Of a stretch of 34,586 nt of DNA, positions 348 to 34,586 are shown in pieces. Under the pieces are notes generated by a model, which ran no database searches, was not told the origin of the DNA, and worked only from the letters and a program-made list of their open reading frames with translations. Location of the stretch: positions 1-34,586 of the IMG/VR virus record IMGVR_UViG_3300017781_000056. One strand, 5' to 3'. Made by a program: the position numbers and the translations under genes. The DNA comes from a virus. How positions within the stretch are numbered: the stretch's first letter is position 1; each line of letters opens with the position of its first letter.

Positions 348-740
348 TTATAGTTTTGTTATTATAACATCTAACCTTGGGTCCTGTCTATCAATCCCCA
401 TATAACAGGAATTAACCTCGACAACCACAGATAAATCATCACTCTCTATACAACCATATTCAACCATAGCATCCTGAAAAAACTTATCTACCACGCTAAT
501 AACATTCATTAAATCCCTCTTTCTTTTATCTGGGGCAAAGTAAAAGTACTCAATTTTTAACTTACCTTCAATAATAAAGTCTAATTTCCTAGAAATATCG
601 GATTTAAATCTACGCTTAATATCATTACTTACTTGATAATGCCAGTTTCTATAACTGTTTAGCGTCATCCACTTTCTTCTCCCCGATTTCTCTATAAAGA
701 GGGGAAGTGATATTGATTTTGTCTTTACTTTTTCTTTCAT
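348..740 (-). CDS. rusA: RusA-like Holliday junction resolvase
   Basis: The product is 130 aa, the usual length for RusA-type crossover junction endonucleases, which cut four-way DNA junctions during phage recombination and replication. Visible family features are the N-terminal LNSYRNWHY block, the acidic RDLMNV block with Asp76, Asp85 in VVDKFFQDAMVEYG, and the SDD at 100-102. These correspond to the metal-binding aspartates of RusA. Its start lies 92 bases inside the 3' end of the primase-helicase gene in another frame. The conserved LNSYRN block begins within that overlap, so the long overlap looks genuine. It belongs to the replication/recombination unit with ERF, SSB and the exonuclease. 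Confidence 0.9.
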   Translation of the reverse strand: MKEKVKTKSISLPLFIEKSGRRKWMTLNSYRNWHYQVSNDIKRRFKSDISRKLDFIIEGKLKIEYFYFAPDKRKRDLMNVISVVDKFFQDAMVEYGCIESDDLSVVVEVNSCYMGIDRQDPRLDVIITKL

Positions 741-2439
741 TGTCTATTTCAGTAAAAGGAGTTATCCCATTAAAATAATACCTTTGACATTTGACATCGA
801 ACTCAATTGAATTGATATCTTGTGGAAAACCAACTAATTTTTGCTTCTTAATCTTCTGGGAGCCAAATATAACCTTATTATCATTATGGTCCTTTGCTTT
901 ATTAGGTCTCCAGACAAATAATACGTTATCAGCCTTATTTGCAAACTCAGATCCCCCTTTTACATAATTTAAATCAGGTTTTGGGTATTTCCCACTCTCA
1001 TCCTTCCTTGGAGTAACCTGATGTGCTACTAAATGTACTGAAATCTTGTTTTCTACTGCAAAACGCTTTAATTGACCCATAAATCTTGAAATATATAGAT
1101 CTTCACGTTCTCCAGACCTCATTTTATGGTGAATTACGTTATATGGGTCTATAATTAGACTGTTTATACCTTTACTCCTAACTAAATACTTAGCTTTTTC
1201 AAATATAGTCGATAAATCATAGTTCTTTTTAGGATATATCACAAAGAAATGATTCTCAATGAATTTAATAGCATCGTTATACTCACTTTCACTCATTTGT
1301 AAGTGCTGATGACGTTTCTGAGTAGATTTACCTATATACATCTCTATAAAATCATTAAAGAAGTCTTCCATTGGAGTATTCTCAGGAGAAAAGTATCCAA
1401 ATCTCCATCCTTCTTGAGCCGCCTTTATAACTGTAAGCTGATTTAGAAATAAACTCTTACCTTCATTCTGATACCCTGTCCAAACATTAACCTCACCTGA
1501 TCTCCAAGTCCAAGCTGAATCTACTTGAGATATATAGGTTGTGGTCCCTACCTCTTGCCCATTCCTAAATGTATGGATTAACTTCTCATATACATCACTC
1601 ACTGTAAACACACCCTCTACTTTAGGCTCAGTAGCGTTTTTAAGACGTTCTAAGAGACTTTCTTTACCTTCTTGAAGCAATACCTCATTTGCATCTTTAA
1701 AGGGGCTAAAATCGACTATTTTACACCTCTCTGTTCCTAAACGTCTGATTAGCTCATCTTCAAGTATTCTCCCATTGTCATCGTTATCAGTAGCTATATA
1801 AATTGTTTTAGCTGATTCAAAAGCCTCATAACAATTACTAATACATTGGAGTTTTTTGTCCACTGTTTTATCCTGTGGGTTAGGAGCGCCCATATTTACA
1901 CTTGTATGGGAAACACAACCAGCTTCCTCCCAAGACAATGAATCTATTTCTCCTTCACAAACTATAATACTAGGCTTACCTTTTACCCTATCGTAGTTGT
2001 ATATAATTGCTTCAGCCTCTTTTGCTTGAGTAAAGAATTTATTGTTTAGACCCCTAGATTTATAATTTACAAGCTCTCCATTTCTGTAGTAAGGAAACAT
2101 AATCATACTCCCATCAACAGATGATTGAACTTTGTTTAGATCTATTACTTTATTTGAGATACCTCTACCATTAAGAAACTTCTTAGCTGGAGATGTAATT
2201 TGTTTGAGTTTATTATTGTTGGGTTTACTATAAAAAGTATTCATCAAGTTTGTTTTAAATGTTCCTTTCCAACCACACTTGTGGCAGTAATATAATGATT
2301 TTTCTAAATTTATTGCTAAACATTTATCTTTATAGTTTGTTTTACCAATCTTTCTGCATTGAGGACATTGTGTCTTTTGTTCATTTCCTCCAGAAACATT
2401 ATTTATTTCTATTCCAAGATCTCTTAATTGTGAATTCAT
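649..2439 (-). CDS. DNA primase-helicase (T7 gp4-like)
   Basis: This 596-aa protein combines priming and unwinding at the replication fork. A zinc ribbon is formed by Cys25, Cys28, Cys52 and Cys55. A Toprim domain follows, with the catalytic Glu in CEGEID (161-166) and the acidic TDNDDNG motif (217-223). The C-terminal RecA-like DnaB-type helicase has a Walker A motif in GYQNEGKS (322-329), followed by LIIDPYN as a likely Walker B region and a VAHQVTPRKD motif. The start ATG at 2439 follows an A-rich leader just downstream of palindromic array A. The gene is probably translated from the unit that begins at the ERF gene. The last 92 bases overlap rusA. Confidence 0.93.
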   Translation of the reverse strand: MNSQLRDLGIEINNVSGGNEQKTQCPQCRKIGKTNYKDKCLAINLEKSLYYCHKCGWKGTFKTNLMNTFYSKPNNNKLKQITSPAKKFLNGRGISNKVIDLNKVQSSVDGSMIMFPYYRNGELVNYKSRGLNNKFFTQAKEAEAIIYNYDRVKGKPSIIVCEGEIDSLSWEEAGCVSHTSVNMGAPNPQDKTVDKKLQCISNCYEAFESAKTIYIATDNDDNGRILEDELIRRLGTERCKIVDFSPFKDANEVLLQEGKESLLERLKNATEPKVEGVFTVSDVYEKLIHTFRNGQEVGTTTYISQVDSAWTWRSGEVNVWTGYQNEGKSLFLNQLTVIKAAQEGWRFGYFSPENTPMEDFFNDFIEMYIGKSTQKRHQHLQMSESEYNDAIKFIENHFFVIYPKKNYDLSTIFEKAKYLVRSKGINSLIIDPYNVIHHKMRSGEREDLYISRFMGQLKRFAVENKISVHLVAHQVTPRKDESGKYPKPDLNYVKGGSEFANKADNVLFVWRPNKAKDHNDNKVIFGSQKIKKQKLVGFPQDINSIEFDVKCQRYYFNGITPFTEIDNERKSKDKINITSPLYREIGEKKVDDAKQL

Positions 2440-2466: not shown

Positions 2467-2566
2467 TATACTAAGTATATAACTATTTATTATTATTATA
2501 ATACTTAGTATATTATACTTAGTATTATACTATAGTTGTAATACTTAGTATATTGTACTAAGTATA
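2467..2566. repeat. Palindromic 13-bp repeat array A (TATACT-N-AGTATA)
   Basis: Copies or close variants of the near-palindrome TATACT(T/A)AGTATA occur at 2467-2479, 2500-2512, 2514-2526, 2540-2552 and 2554-2566. A degenerate copy (ATACTATAGT) lies at 2527-2536. The arms TATACT and AGTATA are complementary around one central base. The array fills the gap between the winged-helix gene and the primase-helicase gene and runs into the 3' end of the former. The same motif forms array B at 25375-25501. Iteron-like binding sites for a phage origin-binding or regulatory protein are the simplest reading. Confidence 0.9.
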
Positions 2567-2802
2567 CTACTAGGAATATTTAAGGTAATTTTCCTTTGCT
2601 TACCAAAGTGTCCCATAGATTTAGTTTCTCTTACTATAGCATTTTTATTCTCTAGGGAGTTTAAGGTCCTATAATAAGTCCTTTGACTTAGTGCAACAGA
2701 TGCAAGTAATTGAATATCCGTAGCAAGACATACTCCATTATTCTCAACTGCTATAGTGGCTATCTCAGTTAAGAGAATAGCCTCGTTATAAGTGAGTTCC
2801 AT
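2545..2802 (-). CDS. Winged helix-turn-helix DNA-binding protein
   Basis: The 85-aa protein consists almost entirely of one winged-helix domain. It has a first helix (YNEAILLTEIATIA), a helix-turn-helix (ATDIQLLASVALSQRTYYRTLNSLENK, about 27-53), and a beta wing containing basic residues (GKQRKITLN). This resembles the N-terminal domain of phage replication initiators and small repressors. Its 3' end runs into palindromic array A, so it is a natural candidate for the protein that binds the arrays, as origin-binding protein or autoregulator. That binding is inference. It follows a terminator at 2820-2843 and would be expressed by readthrough from the ERF/SSB unit. Confidence 0.7.
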   Translation of the reverse strand: MELTYNEAILLTEIATIAVENNGVCLATDIQLLASVALSQRTYYRTLNSLENKNAIVRETKSMGHFGKQRKITLNIPSSILSTIY

Positions 2803-24548: not shown

Positions 24549-24859
24549 CGTCTCATTGATTTTTTAATCATAGCTGCTTCTAATTCGTTTTTCTCTTTCT
24601 CAAAGGTAAGATACATCAAACACTTGAAAAGAGGTTCTGTTGTAACTTGGTCAAATTTCGAGATGTCTCCTTTAGCGAGTCCATAAATTGATTGATACCA
24701 ACCCCATTTCTTTCCAAATCCTCCTTGAGCTGAGAGGTCTCCACCTTCTTGATCTTGTTCTCCAAAGAGACTAGGGAAGCTTTCGATAACTCGATCCCTA
24801 AATCGTAAAAAAAAACCATACACCCCATAACAACACTTAGCGGCATCTCTTTCATCCAC
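24545..24859 (-). CDS. Tail assembly chaperone T-part, expressed as G-T fusion by -1 frameshift
   Basis: This overlapping frame has no need of its own start. From the slippery T run at 24814-24808 it continues the G protein as LRFRDRVIESFPSLFGEQDQ and ends in a domain (FGKKWGWYQSIYGLAKGDIS, CLMYLTFEKEKNELEAAMIK) that resembles the C-terminal region of phage tail assembly chaperones. A shift after codon 167 of G would give a 254-aa G-T fusion. G and G-T are normally made in a fixed ratio and coat the tape measure before tail polymerisation. An isolated start at 24859 is possible but unlikely. Confidence 0.8.
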   Translation of the reverse strand: MDERDAAKCCYGVYGFFLRFRDRVIESFPSLFGEQDQEGGDLSAQGGFGKKWGWYQSIYGLAKGDISKFDQVTTEPLFKCLMYLTFEKEKNELEAAMIKKSMRR

Positions 24860-25308
24860 TCTCTTAATTCCTCATTTGGTTTATATGGAGCTATTGTATA
24901 TCTATCTTTACTCTTAAAGTTTACTGGTCGATACAGAACAGCCATAGCTTTATGGATATCTTGCCAATCGGTTATGGTTGCTTCAACATCAACGTACTCT
25001 CCTAAACTCATATCATCTAACTTAGGTATAAATCCCATATTAACATCTCCTATTGCAAAATGTCTTTGTAGGGAGTATTTTTCTTCGAATGCTTTCTTGA
25101 TAATCTTTAGTACCTTATCGAATTCAACAACTGGTATCAGCTCCACTTCATTAAGGTTAACATTACAGAATATCTCTACGAGCTTCTTGTTTACGAAATC
25201 GTTGTACTCATCTCCTTTGTTATCGTCTAATATTTTTAGATACCTCTGGTATTGACCTAGCGTAATTGCTTCAAGAGATTGTGGTACTTCTAATTCTATT
25301 CTCCCCAT
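24616..25308 (-). CDS. Tail assembly chaperone G
   Basis: This 230-aa protein is the first gene of the late unit. Recognisable parts are MGRIELEVPQSLEAITLGQY, a FKSKDRYTIAPYKPNEELRE block and the PLSVVMGCMVFFYDLG helix, where the coding sequence holds nine consecutive T. The zero-frame product ends with NGVGINQFMDSLKETSRNL. Its last 244 bases overlap the T frame. Chaperone identity rests on the overlapping -1 frame, the T-domain motif and the position upstream of tail genes. Transcription probably starts about 30 bases upstream, behind the palindromic array. Confidence 0.82.
   Translation of the reverse strand: MGRIELEVPQSLEAITLGQYQRYLKILDDNKGDEYNDFVNKKLVEIFCNVNLNEVELIPVVEFDKVLKIIKKAFEEKYSLQRHFAIGDVNMGFIPKLDDMSLGEYVDVEATITDWQDIHKAMAVLYRPVNFKSKDRYTIAPYKPNEELREWMKEMPLSVVMGCMVFFYDLGIELSKASLVSLENKIKKVETSQLKEDLERNGVGINQFMDSLKETSRNLTKLQQNLFSSV
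24808..24814 (-). promoter_or_regulatory. Programmed -1 ribosomal frameshift site (T TTT TTT)
   Basis: In the G frame the codons read ATG GTT TTT TTT TAC (24819-24805). The heptamer T TTT TTT obeys the X XXY YYZ rule, and a one-base backward slip gives TTA CGA TTT and enters the T frame. The frame relation matches known tail chaperone frameshifts. The run of nine T is also prone to sequencing error, but both frames carry conserved-looking sequence. Confidence 0.8.
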
Positions 25309-25342
25309 ATAAAAAGTAATTGATTCGTTTTATTTTGTAACT

Positions 25343-25350
25343 CAAAGATA
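25343..25350 (-). promoter_or_regulatory. Candidate late promoter -7 box without a -33 TTG
   Basis: TATCTTTG on the minus strand fits TAnnTTTG and lies 35 bases upstream of the chaperone start. The expected -33 position reads CTAGG/GGGAA instead of TTG. Array B begins 25 bases further upstream (25375), so activation by a bound phage protein or by the sigma-like factor is plausible. Confidence 0.5.
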
Positions 25351-25374: not shown

Positions 25375-25501
25375 TATACTTAGTATAATATACTTAGTGT
25401 AATACTATAGTAAAGTACATAGTATAATATACTTAGTTATATATATAATAAGAATAGTATAATACTTAGTATATTATACTTAGTATATTATACTTAGTAT
25501 A
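25375..25501. repeat. Palindromic 13-bp repeat array B
   Basis: Perfect TATACTTAGTATA copies lie at 25375-25387, 25475-25487 and 25489-25501. Variants occur at 25389-25401, 25402-25412, 25414-25426, 25428-25440 and 25461-25473. Copies within a cluster are 13-14 bp apart, a little more than one helical turn. The motif is the same as in array A, 9 to 12 kb away on the circle. The array separates the late unit from the gene-free island. Confidence 0.92.
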
Positions 25502-25790
25502 ATACTGGGACAAGACTTATCTTAGTGTGGCAGTTGGAAAAGATGGTTTGTGTAGAGTCGTGGTTACTTATACTATACTACTACTTACTTGGCAGAGTAC
25601 CCTTATTTCTCATTCTAAGGCTATTTTAAAGCGTTTTAATACTTATATGGTGTATTGGTATAGGTTAACGGAATTAAATTCATTACAGGGCTTTAAATTG
25701 GGTCTGAGTGGAGTGGTTAATGATATTAATCGGCTGGTTTTGATAAATCGAGCTACCAAATGAAACCTTTTTTAATTGTAACTTATTAAG
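25502..25790. other. Island without minus-strand genes, reversed strand composition
   Basis: About 290 bp between array B and the terminator of unit 3 hold no minus-strand ORF longer than 15 codons. The plus strand here is G-rich relative to C (for example GGGTCTGAGTGGAGTGG), unlike the plus strand elsewhere in the genome. It contains one plus-strand ORF with a GTG start (25527-25763). Candidates are a rightward small gene, a noncoding RNA or part of a replication origin. I see no tRNA fold. Confidence 0.55.
25527..25763 (+). CDS. Doubtful rightward small ORF, 78 aa, GTG start
   Basis: This is the only plus-strand ORF that is not the shadow of a minus-strand gene. The product has a hydrophobic segment (VVVTYTILLLTWQSTLI) followed by a mixed basic region (AILKRFNTYMVYWYRLTELN) and resembles no family I know. 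Its start is GTG, no Bacteroidota promoter is evident upstream on the plus strand, and palindromic array B lies directly before it. Strand composition speaks for plus-strand coding; everything else is open. Confidence 0.25.
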   Translation: MAVGKDGLCRVVVTYTILLLTWQSTLISHSKAILKRFNTYMVYWYRLTELNSLQGFKLGLSGVVNDINRLVLINRATK

Positions 25791-25819
25791 GATCAATAAG
25801 AATATTAAAATAAACCCAT

Positions 25820-25842
25820 AAAAAAACCCCCTGAAAAGGGGG
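25820..25842 (-). terminator. Intrinsic terminator ending unit 3
   Basis: A CCCCC / GGGGG stem (25827-25831 with 25838-25842) with a six-base loop is followed on the minus strand by seven T (25826-25820). It lies 23 bases after the stop of the gene at 25866. Confidence 0.9.
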
Positions 25843-25865
25843 CTTAACTTTAATATAAATTTAAT

Positions 25866-30830: not shown

Positions 30831-31182
30831 CCTCTTCGTGATTAACATCTATTGTTTTAGGTTTAGCGAAATCAATAACAGGAATATTAATTTTAGTATT
30901 AACATTTAACTCCTGTTGTTCTTTTGGTTTCCCATATCTATACTCCCATAACATCTTAGTATAATTAAAGTTACCTTCAGATGCCTTTTGAGCAACGTGG
31001 ACCCAAGCTTTCTCTTCACTACCAAAAGCCTTTTTAAGTGCCTTTAAAGTAAGAGCATTTGTTTCTCTCTCTTTTATCTTTGGAGGTCTACCCTGACCTC
31101 TTGAGATCCCCTTAACAGCTCCATTATTACGTCTGCCATCAGGTTTCTTAATACTTTCTTCGTTGTCTTCTTTTCTTTTCAT
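30817..31182 (-). CDS. Terminase small subunit-like protein
   Basis: This 121-aa protein has a basic, Gly/Asn-rich start (PDGRRNNGAVKGISRGQGRP), then a helical part (NALTLKALKKAFGSEEKAWV, GNFNYTKMLWEYRYGKP) and an acidic end. Such basic N-termini followed by a helical core occur in DNA-recognising small terminase subunits of Bacteroidota phages. It lies upstream of terL with three small genes between. The assignment is by composition and position. Confidence 0.6.
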   Translation of the reverse strand: MKRKEDNEESIKKPDGRRNNGAVKGISRGQGRPPKIKERETNALTLKALKKAFGSEEKAWVHVAQKASEGNFNYTKMLWEYRYGKPKEQQELNVNTKINIPVIDFAKPKTIDVNHEEDEDK

Positions 31183-31633
31183 CTACTAATATTTGATGTT
31201 GATCTACTAACAGTCTATAATTCCTACTCAACATATCATAAGAGTTCTTTAGATTCTCATAACTAGTTGCTATTTCAGCTAGTGTATTTTCTTCATTCAT
31301 TGGCTCCAATATACACTGGTGGTATAAAGAAAGAAGCCTTGAATATTTTGATCCTATCTGGGGGATTTGATTAATATCAAATTCAAGTTGATTGATGTTA
31401 TGGAGAACAGAAGTGTGATGTTTCCCAACAGATTCTCCTATATCGTGCAAAGTCATTTTAGTGTTATCTTTTAATAACTTAAAATACATAGCACGAGCCT
31501 CTACATAAACCCTTACCCTTGTAGGGTTCGATAAATTTATTTTATAAAACCTCTCTATAATAATCCTTGTTTTATTCTTTATATCAGATATGTCCTGTAC
31601 TTTAGTTATTAATGTTTTCTCGTTTGATTCCAT
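31148..31633 (-). CDS. DnaA domain IV-like DNA-binding protein
   Basis: The 161-aa protein contains a helix-turn-helix of the DnaA C-terminal type at about 38-80. VRVYVEARAMYFKLLKDNTK is followed by LHDIGESVGKHHTSVLHNIN, comparable to the DnaA signature (IG---G-RDHTTVLHA). No AAA+ domain is present. The C-terminal half is a coiled coil (SYENLKNSYDMLSRNYRLLV). It may bind DnaA-box-like sites or regulate replication or packaging. Similar isolated domains exist in phages of Bacteroidota. It overlaps the small terminase candidate by 35 bases. Confidence 0.8.
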   Translation of the reverse strand: MESNEKTLITKVQDISDIKNKTRIIIERFYKINLSNPTRVRVYVEARAMYFKLLKDNTKMTLHDIGESVGKHHTSVLHNINQLEFDINQIPQIGSKYSRLLSLYHQCILEPMNEENTLAEIATSYENLKNSYDMLSRNYRLLVDQHQILVDEKKRRQRRKY

Positions 31634-33765: not shown

Positions 33766-34134
33766 TTAGTACTCTTTGTAAACTTGCTTTAGTTTACTCA
33801 ATACTCCATTTAAGAAACAACTAGAACAGCTTGTTGTTTGTGCCTTTTCCTTAAATACTCTATTGTATATTGAAACTAATTTAGTCTGGACCTCTGGATC
33901 TATTTTACTCCCTTTACTAGTGAAGAAGTTATCTAGGTAGTTGAATTCATCTTCAACTAAACATTCAGGCTTGTTATAGGGGAAGAGCTTATTTAAATGC
34001 TCTTTACGTTCTTGACAGCCACAGTCTTCTCCCAAAGCCCATTTGGCTAATTTATCGACACCAACAGATTTAAATATCTTTTCTACAGTGTCTCCTAATC
34101 CCTTATCAGGTTTTCGATTTTTTGTACTTTTCAT
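33766..34134 (-). CDS. Conserved-looking phage protein with cysteine motifs, 122 aa
   Basis: KGLGDTVEKIFKSVGVDKLA leads to GEDCGCQERKEHLNKLFPYN, a pattern I recall from many flavobacterial phages (GLGDTVE-F---G--K-----GEDCGC-ER---LN--FPY-KPEC). A second CSSC pair is near the end, so zinc binding is possible. The role is unknown. It overlaps the end of the sigma-like gene by 29 bases. Confidence 0.75.
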   Translation of the reverse strand: MKSTKNRKPDKGLGDTVEKIFKSVGVDKLAKWALGEDCGCQERKEHLNKLFPYNKPECLVEDEFNYLDNFFTSKGSKIDPEVQTKLVSIYNRVFKEKAQTTSCSSCFLNGVLSKLKQVYKEY

Positions 34135-34586
34135 AATGCTTTACTGTTTTATTTCTAACCTTAGTTTTACTATTACTTAACGTATTAAAAATTGAACTCA
34201 AGCTTATTCTCGTTTCTTTTGCTATTTTTCTCATACTCATACCATCGTTAAAATGTATATTAAAAACCTTTTTATCATACCAGTACCATTTATCTACTTC
34301 ATATTCTATCTTATCTATCAGTTTATCAAACTCAATCTTCTGGTTTGTTATTTCTACAGAAGTATCTATTAAGTCATCTAACTCGGAGAACCAAGCATTA
34401 TCCCAACAAATAAATCTACTTTTTATCTTATGATGATTACTAAGATACAAATTTCTCATTGTAACATAAACGTAAAAGGTATTGACCTCCACCTCATTGT
34501 ATAATATCTTCTCTGGGTCATCAACATAATCTGTTATTCTAAGATACATTTGTTGGACTATTTCATTGGCATCGTTATCCGATAAC
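34106..34586 (-). CDS. RNA polymerase sigma factor-like protein, C-terminal part (starts at 140 or 194 across the ends)
   Basis: Joined over the 123-bp repeat, the protein has 165 residues from the ATG at 140, or 183 from a TTG at 194. The N-terminal helices (DANEIVQQMYLRI, then DPEKILYNEVEVNTFYVYVT) resemble sigma region 2. The end carries a region 4-like helix-turn-helix: WYDKKVFNIHFNDGMSMRKI and AKETRISLSSIFNTL. This is typical of short sigma-like proteins of Bacteroidota phages and could redirect host polymerase, for example to the late promoter that lacks a -33 box. Binding to polymerase is inferred. Confidence 0.8.
   Translation of the reverse strand, partial: LSDNDANEIVQQMYLRITDYVDDPEKILYNEVEVNTFYVYVTMRNLYLSNHHKIKSRFICWDNAWFSELDDLIDTSVEITNQKIEFDKLIDKIEYEVDKWYWYDKKVFNIHFNDGMSMRKIAKETRISLSSIFNTLSNSKTKVRNKTVKHYEKYKKSKT
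34464..34586. repeat. Direct terminal repeat, right copy (identical to 1-123)
   Basis: Exact copy of the first 123 bases; see the left copy. One of the two copies should be removed when the circle is closed. Confidence 0.95.

Follow-up and report, generated by a model that had tools for sequence, protein, structure and literature searches.

Two palindrome arrays in the genome of an uncultured phage look like a paired-origin system with a candidate winged-helix initiator

The phage genome analysed here carries two arrays of a 13-bp palindrome, A and B, which, judged from their sequence and surroundings, look like a paired-origin system. According to the reading that we consider rather probable, the phage's own winged-helix initiator would act on A and B as two origin-like sites located on easily melted DNA, in a manner reminiscent of oriL and oriR of phage SPP1. 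We infer the winged-helix protein as the reader of the arrays, the nature of A and B as origins, and the role of B from gene content, conservation among relatives and computed DNA stability.

The window, i.e. the whole stretch of DNA analysed, comprises 34,586 bp (IMG/VR record IMGVR_UViG_3300017781_000056) and is regarded as a complete phage genome with a circular map because of a direct terminal repeat of 123 bp. All larger genes lie on the minus strand, among them the genes for a primase-helicase (Toprim plus DnaB_C; 649..2439, minus strand) directly downstream of array A, and for late1 (230 aa; 24616..25308, minus strand), the first gene after array B and the start of the run of structural genes. 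The small gene ending in array A codes for a winged-helix protein of 85 aa (2545..2802, minus strand). Upstream of it are encoded an ERF-family single-strand annealing protein and a 94-aa protein, whose position and C-terminal tail suggest an SSB; a RusA-like resolvase is encoded downstream of the primase-helicase, and an exonuclease further along. A 161-aa protein encoded just before the terminase genes (31148-31633) has a DnaA domain-IV-like DNA-binding domain (PF08299, 8.7e-9), and no ATPase domain was found in this protein. Similarity of terminase and primase to those of Nonlabens and Tenacibaculum phages points to a host among the Bacteroidota, as does the box TATCTTTG (25343..25350, minus strand), which matches the Bacteroidota -7 box TAnnTTTG. 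A scan of GTDB genomes with the primase found no relative and thus gave no clue to a host or prophage, and an Rfam search of the window gave no match. The primase-helicase of Tenacibaculum phage JQ matches that of the window at 48%, but another gene lies immediately before it.

Allowing at most one mismatch, the palindrome TATACTWAGTATA occurs ten times in the 34.6-kb genome, and all ten copies are located inside A or B. Array A (2467..2566) contains five of them, starting at 2467, 2500, 2514, 2540 and 2554; it reaches into the final codons of the winged-helix gene, and about 27 bp separate its end from the primase-helicase start codon. Array B (25375..25501) sits between an intrinsic terminator and late1 and also contains five copies (25375, 25389, 25461, 25475 and 25489), along with three degenerate ones (25414, 25428 and 25444). 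Adjacent copies are 14 bp apart and form pairs or triplets, with 25-33 bp between the groups. The initial annotation had described palindrome arrays at these two places, one of them preceding the primase-helicase gene, with about eight copies in B and no comparable cluster elsewhere, and all of this was borne out: no site with at most one mismatch was found outside A and B in the whole genome. The reversed control pattern was not found in the genome at all. Dinucleotide shuffles of the whole genome gave on average 0.3 sites, at most 2, and never more than one within 130 bp, and local shuffling of each array, which allows for its AT-richness, yielded five sites in none of 2000 trials with A or with B. 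Chance or pure AT-richness as the cause of the arrays is ruled out by these local shuffles. With looser matching (3 mismatches), the motif was not enriched genome-wide, and the signal is therefore the clustering of near-exact copies.

For comparison, IMG/VR was scanned for relatives, which yielded 12 primase-helicase loci and 80 late1 loci, and 17 relatives were compared as whole contigs. These relatives are metagenomic contigs, some of them fragments, and, since they are related by descent, counts of genomes given here are not counts of independent events; as far as can be read from the sequences, the independent evidence is the change of the motif between clades at both sites. The relatives have a common order of genes and sites, running from ERF, the SSB-like gene and the winged-helix gene through site A to the primase-helicase, the resolvase, a sigma-like gene, terminase, site B and late1. 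In eleven genomes, late1 follows the primase start at 10.6-12.6 kb along the direction of transcription, and the two arrays are about 11.5 kb apart in the window. In two related contigs, G007 and G011 (L211 and L210), the reading frame of the primase-helicase is interrupted by a single TAG stop.

The initial annotation had named absence or lack of conservation of the arrays in close relatives as the finding that would refute it; examination of the IMG/VR relatives did not refute it and showed the arrays to be conserved as a pair by their place, A where the winged-helix gene ends, ahead of the primase-helicase, and B immediately upstream of late1. In the wider clade of the window (type I), the exact TACTWAGTA 9-mers TACTTAGTA and TACTAAGTA are restricted to A and B in each of the six type-I contigs tested. 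A second clade (type II) of 18 genomes, found through the winged-helix protein, has a different motif at the same places: exact TACATAGTGTA is confined in these genomes to A-type and B-type clusters, the A-type cluster following the winged-helix gene and the B-type cluster lying just upstream of late1 in all 15 type-II genomes that encode late1, while the reversed control pattern is absent from type-II genomes. Both half-sites of the palindrome have thus changed, across the copies, at A as well as at B. When B was compared to all windows of the same genome, A came out as its best match in all 14 genomes when scores were summed and in 12 of them when the best single match was taken, and A exceeded shuffled A in all 14 by at least one of two measures, most weakly in G002 and G003. 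The similarity between A and B is block-diagonal, i.e. high within clades and near background between clades. The clades around G002 and G025 have no clear palindrome array common to A and B, and only the element E1 described below and AT-richness are common to the two sites there. The simplest cause of such a concerted motif change is one phage-encoded DNA-binding protein that reads both sites, which supports the earlier proposal of one phage protein acting at two places.

Similar words also form tandem arrays in other viral contigs that are not recognisably close to the window phage, namely L119 (1509-1591, with six copies of ATTACTTAGTATA at 14-bp spacing), L097 (3594-3712), L149 (4834-4939) and L146 (8590-8759). 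A TACTWAGTA pair is present in many unrelated viral contigs, most of which hold a single pair that may be due to chance.

The candidate reader of the arrays is the 85-aa winged-helix protein, which resembles the DNA-binding domain of O-like and DnaD-like initiators. All ten family members searched matched the PHROG replication-initiation (O-like, DnaD-like) families phrog_428 and phrog_270, with a best value of 3.7e-12, the window's own copy matching the initiator families weakly (8.8e-4), and the family also matches Pfam HTH_36 (best 2.1e-11). The predicted fold is a plain winged helix (pLDDT 84.8); structures close to the model include plasmid initiator domains, phage replisome organisers and DnaD as well as MarR-type/RovA regulators. 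The proteins of the family are 85-106 aa long and end after the winged helix, without a C-terminal domain contacting a helicase or loader, and we therefore class them as a stand-alone domain related to O and not as full O proteins. A search of cultivated phages found no relative of the winged-helix protein. Its gene is present in all 12 genomes with arrays and in none of the 13 late1 relatives lacking arrays, several of which are fragments. This co-occurrence, in which a site in the late region tracks a gene of the replication region, is the best evidence that the protein, or the module to which it belongs, acts on B; together with the matches to initiator families, it upholds the choice of this protein as first candidate in the initial annotation.

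DNA stability was calculated from nearest-neighbour energies in 60-bp segments of 18 genomes. A and B contain the two least stable segments in 16 of these genomes, and in the other two A ranks first and B third. In the window, the least stable 60 bp of the genome (2444..2503) are the candidate unwinding element of A, and the second least stable 60 bp (25419..25478) that of B. Low stability is expected of AT-rich arrays; what matters is that no other place in these genomes scores so low. Averaged GC skew has only a mild step at A and lacks one at B in genomes whose larger genes are all on one strand; it is not diagnostic for origin mapping and was dropped for this purpose.

Most relatives outside the clade of the window carry a further element, E1 (CCAACTGYC-N5-GRCANAT), which with at most two mismatches is found only at A and B, often as two facing copies at B. 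At A, E1 is at the same time the coding end of the winged-helix gene, as in L259 (near 650-700) and L331, where it encodes, e.g., PTVKATYH, such that protein and DNA site are written in the same bases. In most relatives E1 is intact at both sites, but in the clade of the window it has been lost at A, and the window retains only a remnant with 3 mismatches at B (CCAACTGCCACACTAAGATAA; 25517..25537, minus strand). The winged-helix protein thus has two candidate elements, and the presence of E1 in addition to the palindromes would be compatible with two readers or with one reader whose site has altered.

The surroundings of B contain candidate transcription signals. A promoter-like bipartite element, TACA-N16-TTA, lies 8 bp before the ATG of late1 (25317..25339, minus strand; TACA at 25336-25339, TTA at 25317-25319) and is present in all 39 matched array-bearing late1 loci, 8-14 bp before the start codon. 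A matrix derived from these 39 loci found its best site at the late1 element in every genome scanned, the next site being much weaker in most of them. More distant late1 loci lack both the arrays and TACA-N16-TTA. The box TATCTTTG is confined to the nearest relatives of the window, and TACA-N16-TTA is the conserved element. If this element is the promoter, the late mRNA would be nearly leaderless. A 147-aa protein resembling sigma region 4 (34106-34549), conserved in the family, is a candidate late sigma factor for it. In most loci, the right-hand copy of E1 ends 10-13 bp before the late promoter-like element, and the distance from the last array copy to this element varies between genomes from 36 to more than 160 bp. 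At A, no conserved promoter element was found, and the stretch between array and start codon consists of AT repeats. The transcript upstream of B is closed by the intrinsic terminator (25824..25845, minus strand), in one stem pair of which a relative has both bases changed and the pairing kept. About 310 bp (25510-25820) separate the terminator from array B; they are highly conserved in near relatives and apparently non-coding, the first ~90 bp being nearly identical in three contigs. A coding role for this stretch was rejected, as its 78-aa plus-strand ORF (25527-25763) is not open in the near relative L177; it could be an RNA or a decayed gene.

According to the preferred reading, the arrays would be two copies of one kind of site, each a cluster of palindromic sites on an easily melted stretch, and both would be read by the phage's winged-helix initiator protein. 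A, which lies over the 3' end of the initiator gene shortly ahead of the primase-helicase, would be the likely main origin: initiator dimers would load on the palindromes, the AT-rich DNA would open, and the primase-helicase encoded by the neighbouring gene would enter. B would be a second site bound by the initiator, about 11.5 kb further along the direction of transcription between terminator and late promoter, and, by analogy with oriR of SPP1, might function either as a late origin or as a fork barrier aiding the switch from theta to concatemer replication. The ERF annealing protein, the RusA-like resolvase and the exonuclease are recombination-replication partners and are counted in favour of this reading. 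The initial annotation had offered, as its other option, two parts of an origin, and this suggestion stands in the form of two origin-like sites, given the low stability at both and the match to initiator families. Rather unlikely is an extension in which B, as an initiator-bound second origin, would also switch on the adjacent late promoter. If this were true, late transcription would start only after the replication initiator has accumulated or a fork has arrived, and a widespread lineage of uncultured phages would couple replication directly to late genes through two co-evolving sites of origin type.

The winged-helix protein could instead be a transcription regulator that times early and late expression by controlling the primase-helicase from A and the late operon from B. 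We regard this as not very likely, although a strictly conserved late promoter-like element directly follows B, the right-hand E1 is found in most relatives at a spacing from that element typical of operators, and the fold also resembles MarR/RovA regulators. The family is annotated as replication initiation, and the interval between the final array copy and the late element varies in a way unlike a phased activator site; since the promoter-like element is seen only beside B, at a variable distance from the array, and only AT repeats separate the array at A from the start codon, an initiator with two origins is a better fit than one regulator with two promoters. A and B have their core parts (E1, AT-rich DNA, palindromes) in one order and orientation and lie at a steady distance from each other, which would also suit a single origin of which A and B are halves, both having to be bound, and perhaps joined by looping, for initiation. 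This arrangement appears quite unlikely, as each site has its own melting element and the sequence demands no cooperation between them.

Very unlikely, in our view, is a different reader, be it from the host or one of the phage's own sigma-like or DnaA-like proteins, with the winged-helix gene as a mere neighbour of the site. The family also encodes sigma-like and DnaA_C-like proteins widely, and the two elements, E1 and palindromes, suggest two readers, but a clade-by-clade change of specificity is not expected of a host factor, and the winged-helix gene both overlaps site A and tracks the B arrays by its presence. The arrays might also be AT-rich repeats without function whose similarity is maintained by recombination between them, in agreement with the long near-identical stretch common to both arrays of G001 (best score 49). 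We consider this extremely improbable in view of positions that are fixed over wide divergence, of symmetrical half-site changes in all copies at both places, and of the absence of the arrays from genomes with another replication module. The preferred reading of an initiator with two origin-like sites lends itself to experiment: with an 85-aa protein and two short pieces of DNA, a bench test of the role of the second origin, including the timing of late genes, is feasible.

Several known replication systems resemble the one proposed here. The initiator O of phage lambda has a winged-helix DNA-binding domain, and its repeated sites lie just downstream of the region coding for that domain. The window phage is similar in having a winged-helix domain with sites just downstream and in matching the O-like PHROG families. 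It differs in that lambda has one origin and a second domain of O that contacts P, whereas the window phage has two sites and its protein lacks a second domain. In the satellite phage P4, ori and crr are separated regions that share repeats for one replication protein, the primase-helicase alpha, which itself binds these repeats. For P4 (ori and crr) and plasmid R6K, it is reported that both sites must be bound, perhaps with looping, for initiation. With P4, the window phage has in common two separated regions with common repeats; it differs in its candidate reader, which is the winged-helix protein and not the primase-helicase.

Two distant origin sites served by one phage initiator are well studied in SPP1. 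Its oriL is located within the initiator gene 38, and oriR lies between genes at a distance of 12-13 kb, with transcription signals on either side; both contain repeats and an AT-rich unwinding region and are bound by gp38, which at oriR has been proposed to stall the fork and thereby trigger concatemer synthesis (PMC6316719, PMC3485210). The window phage likewise has two distant, genome-unique sites with common repeats, about 11.5 kb apart compared to the 12-13 kb of SPP1, and an AT-rich unwinding element at each, here predicted from computed stability. One site is in the initiator gene near the helicase, the initiator role being assigned here by family match, the second is intergenic among transcription signals, and an SSB (a probable one here), an annealing protein and a resolvase are encoded as well. 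In SPP1, binding and origin function are known, whereas here both are predicted from sequence. The window phage further differs in its initiator, which would be a lone winged-helix domain, in its fused primase-helicase in place of helicase plus loader, in the predicted late promoter that adjoins its second site, and in its 13-bp palindrome arrays, which change in concert between clades. The lineage may therefore be seen as a natural record of the co-evolution of an initiator with its sites, in which the layout of SPP1 is made of other parts and the motif changes in concert at both sites.
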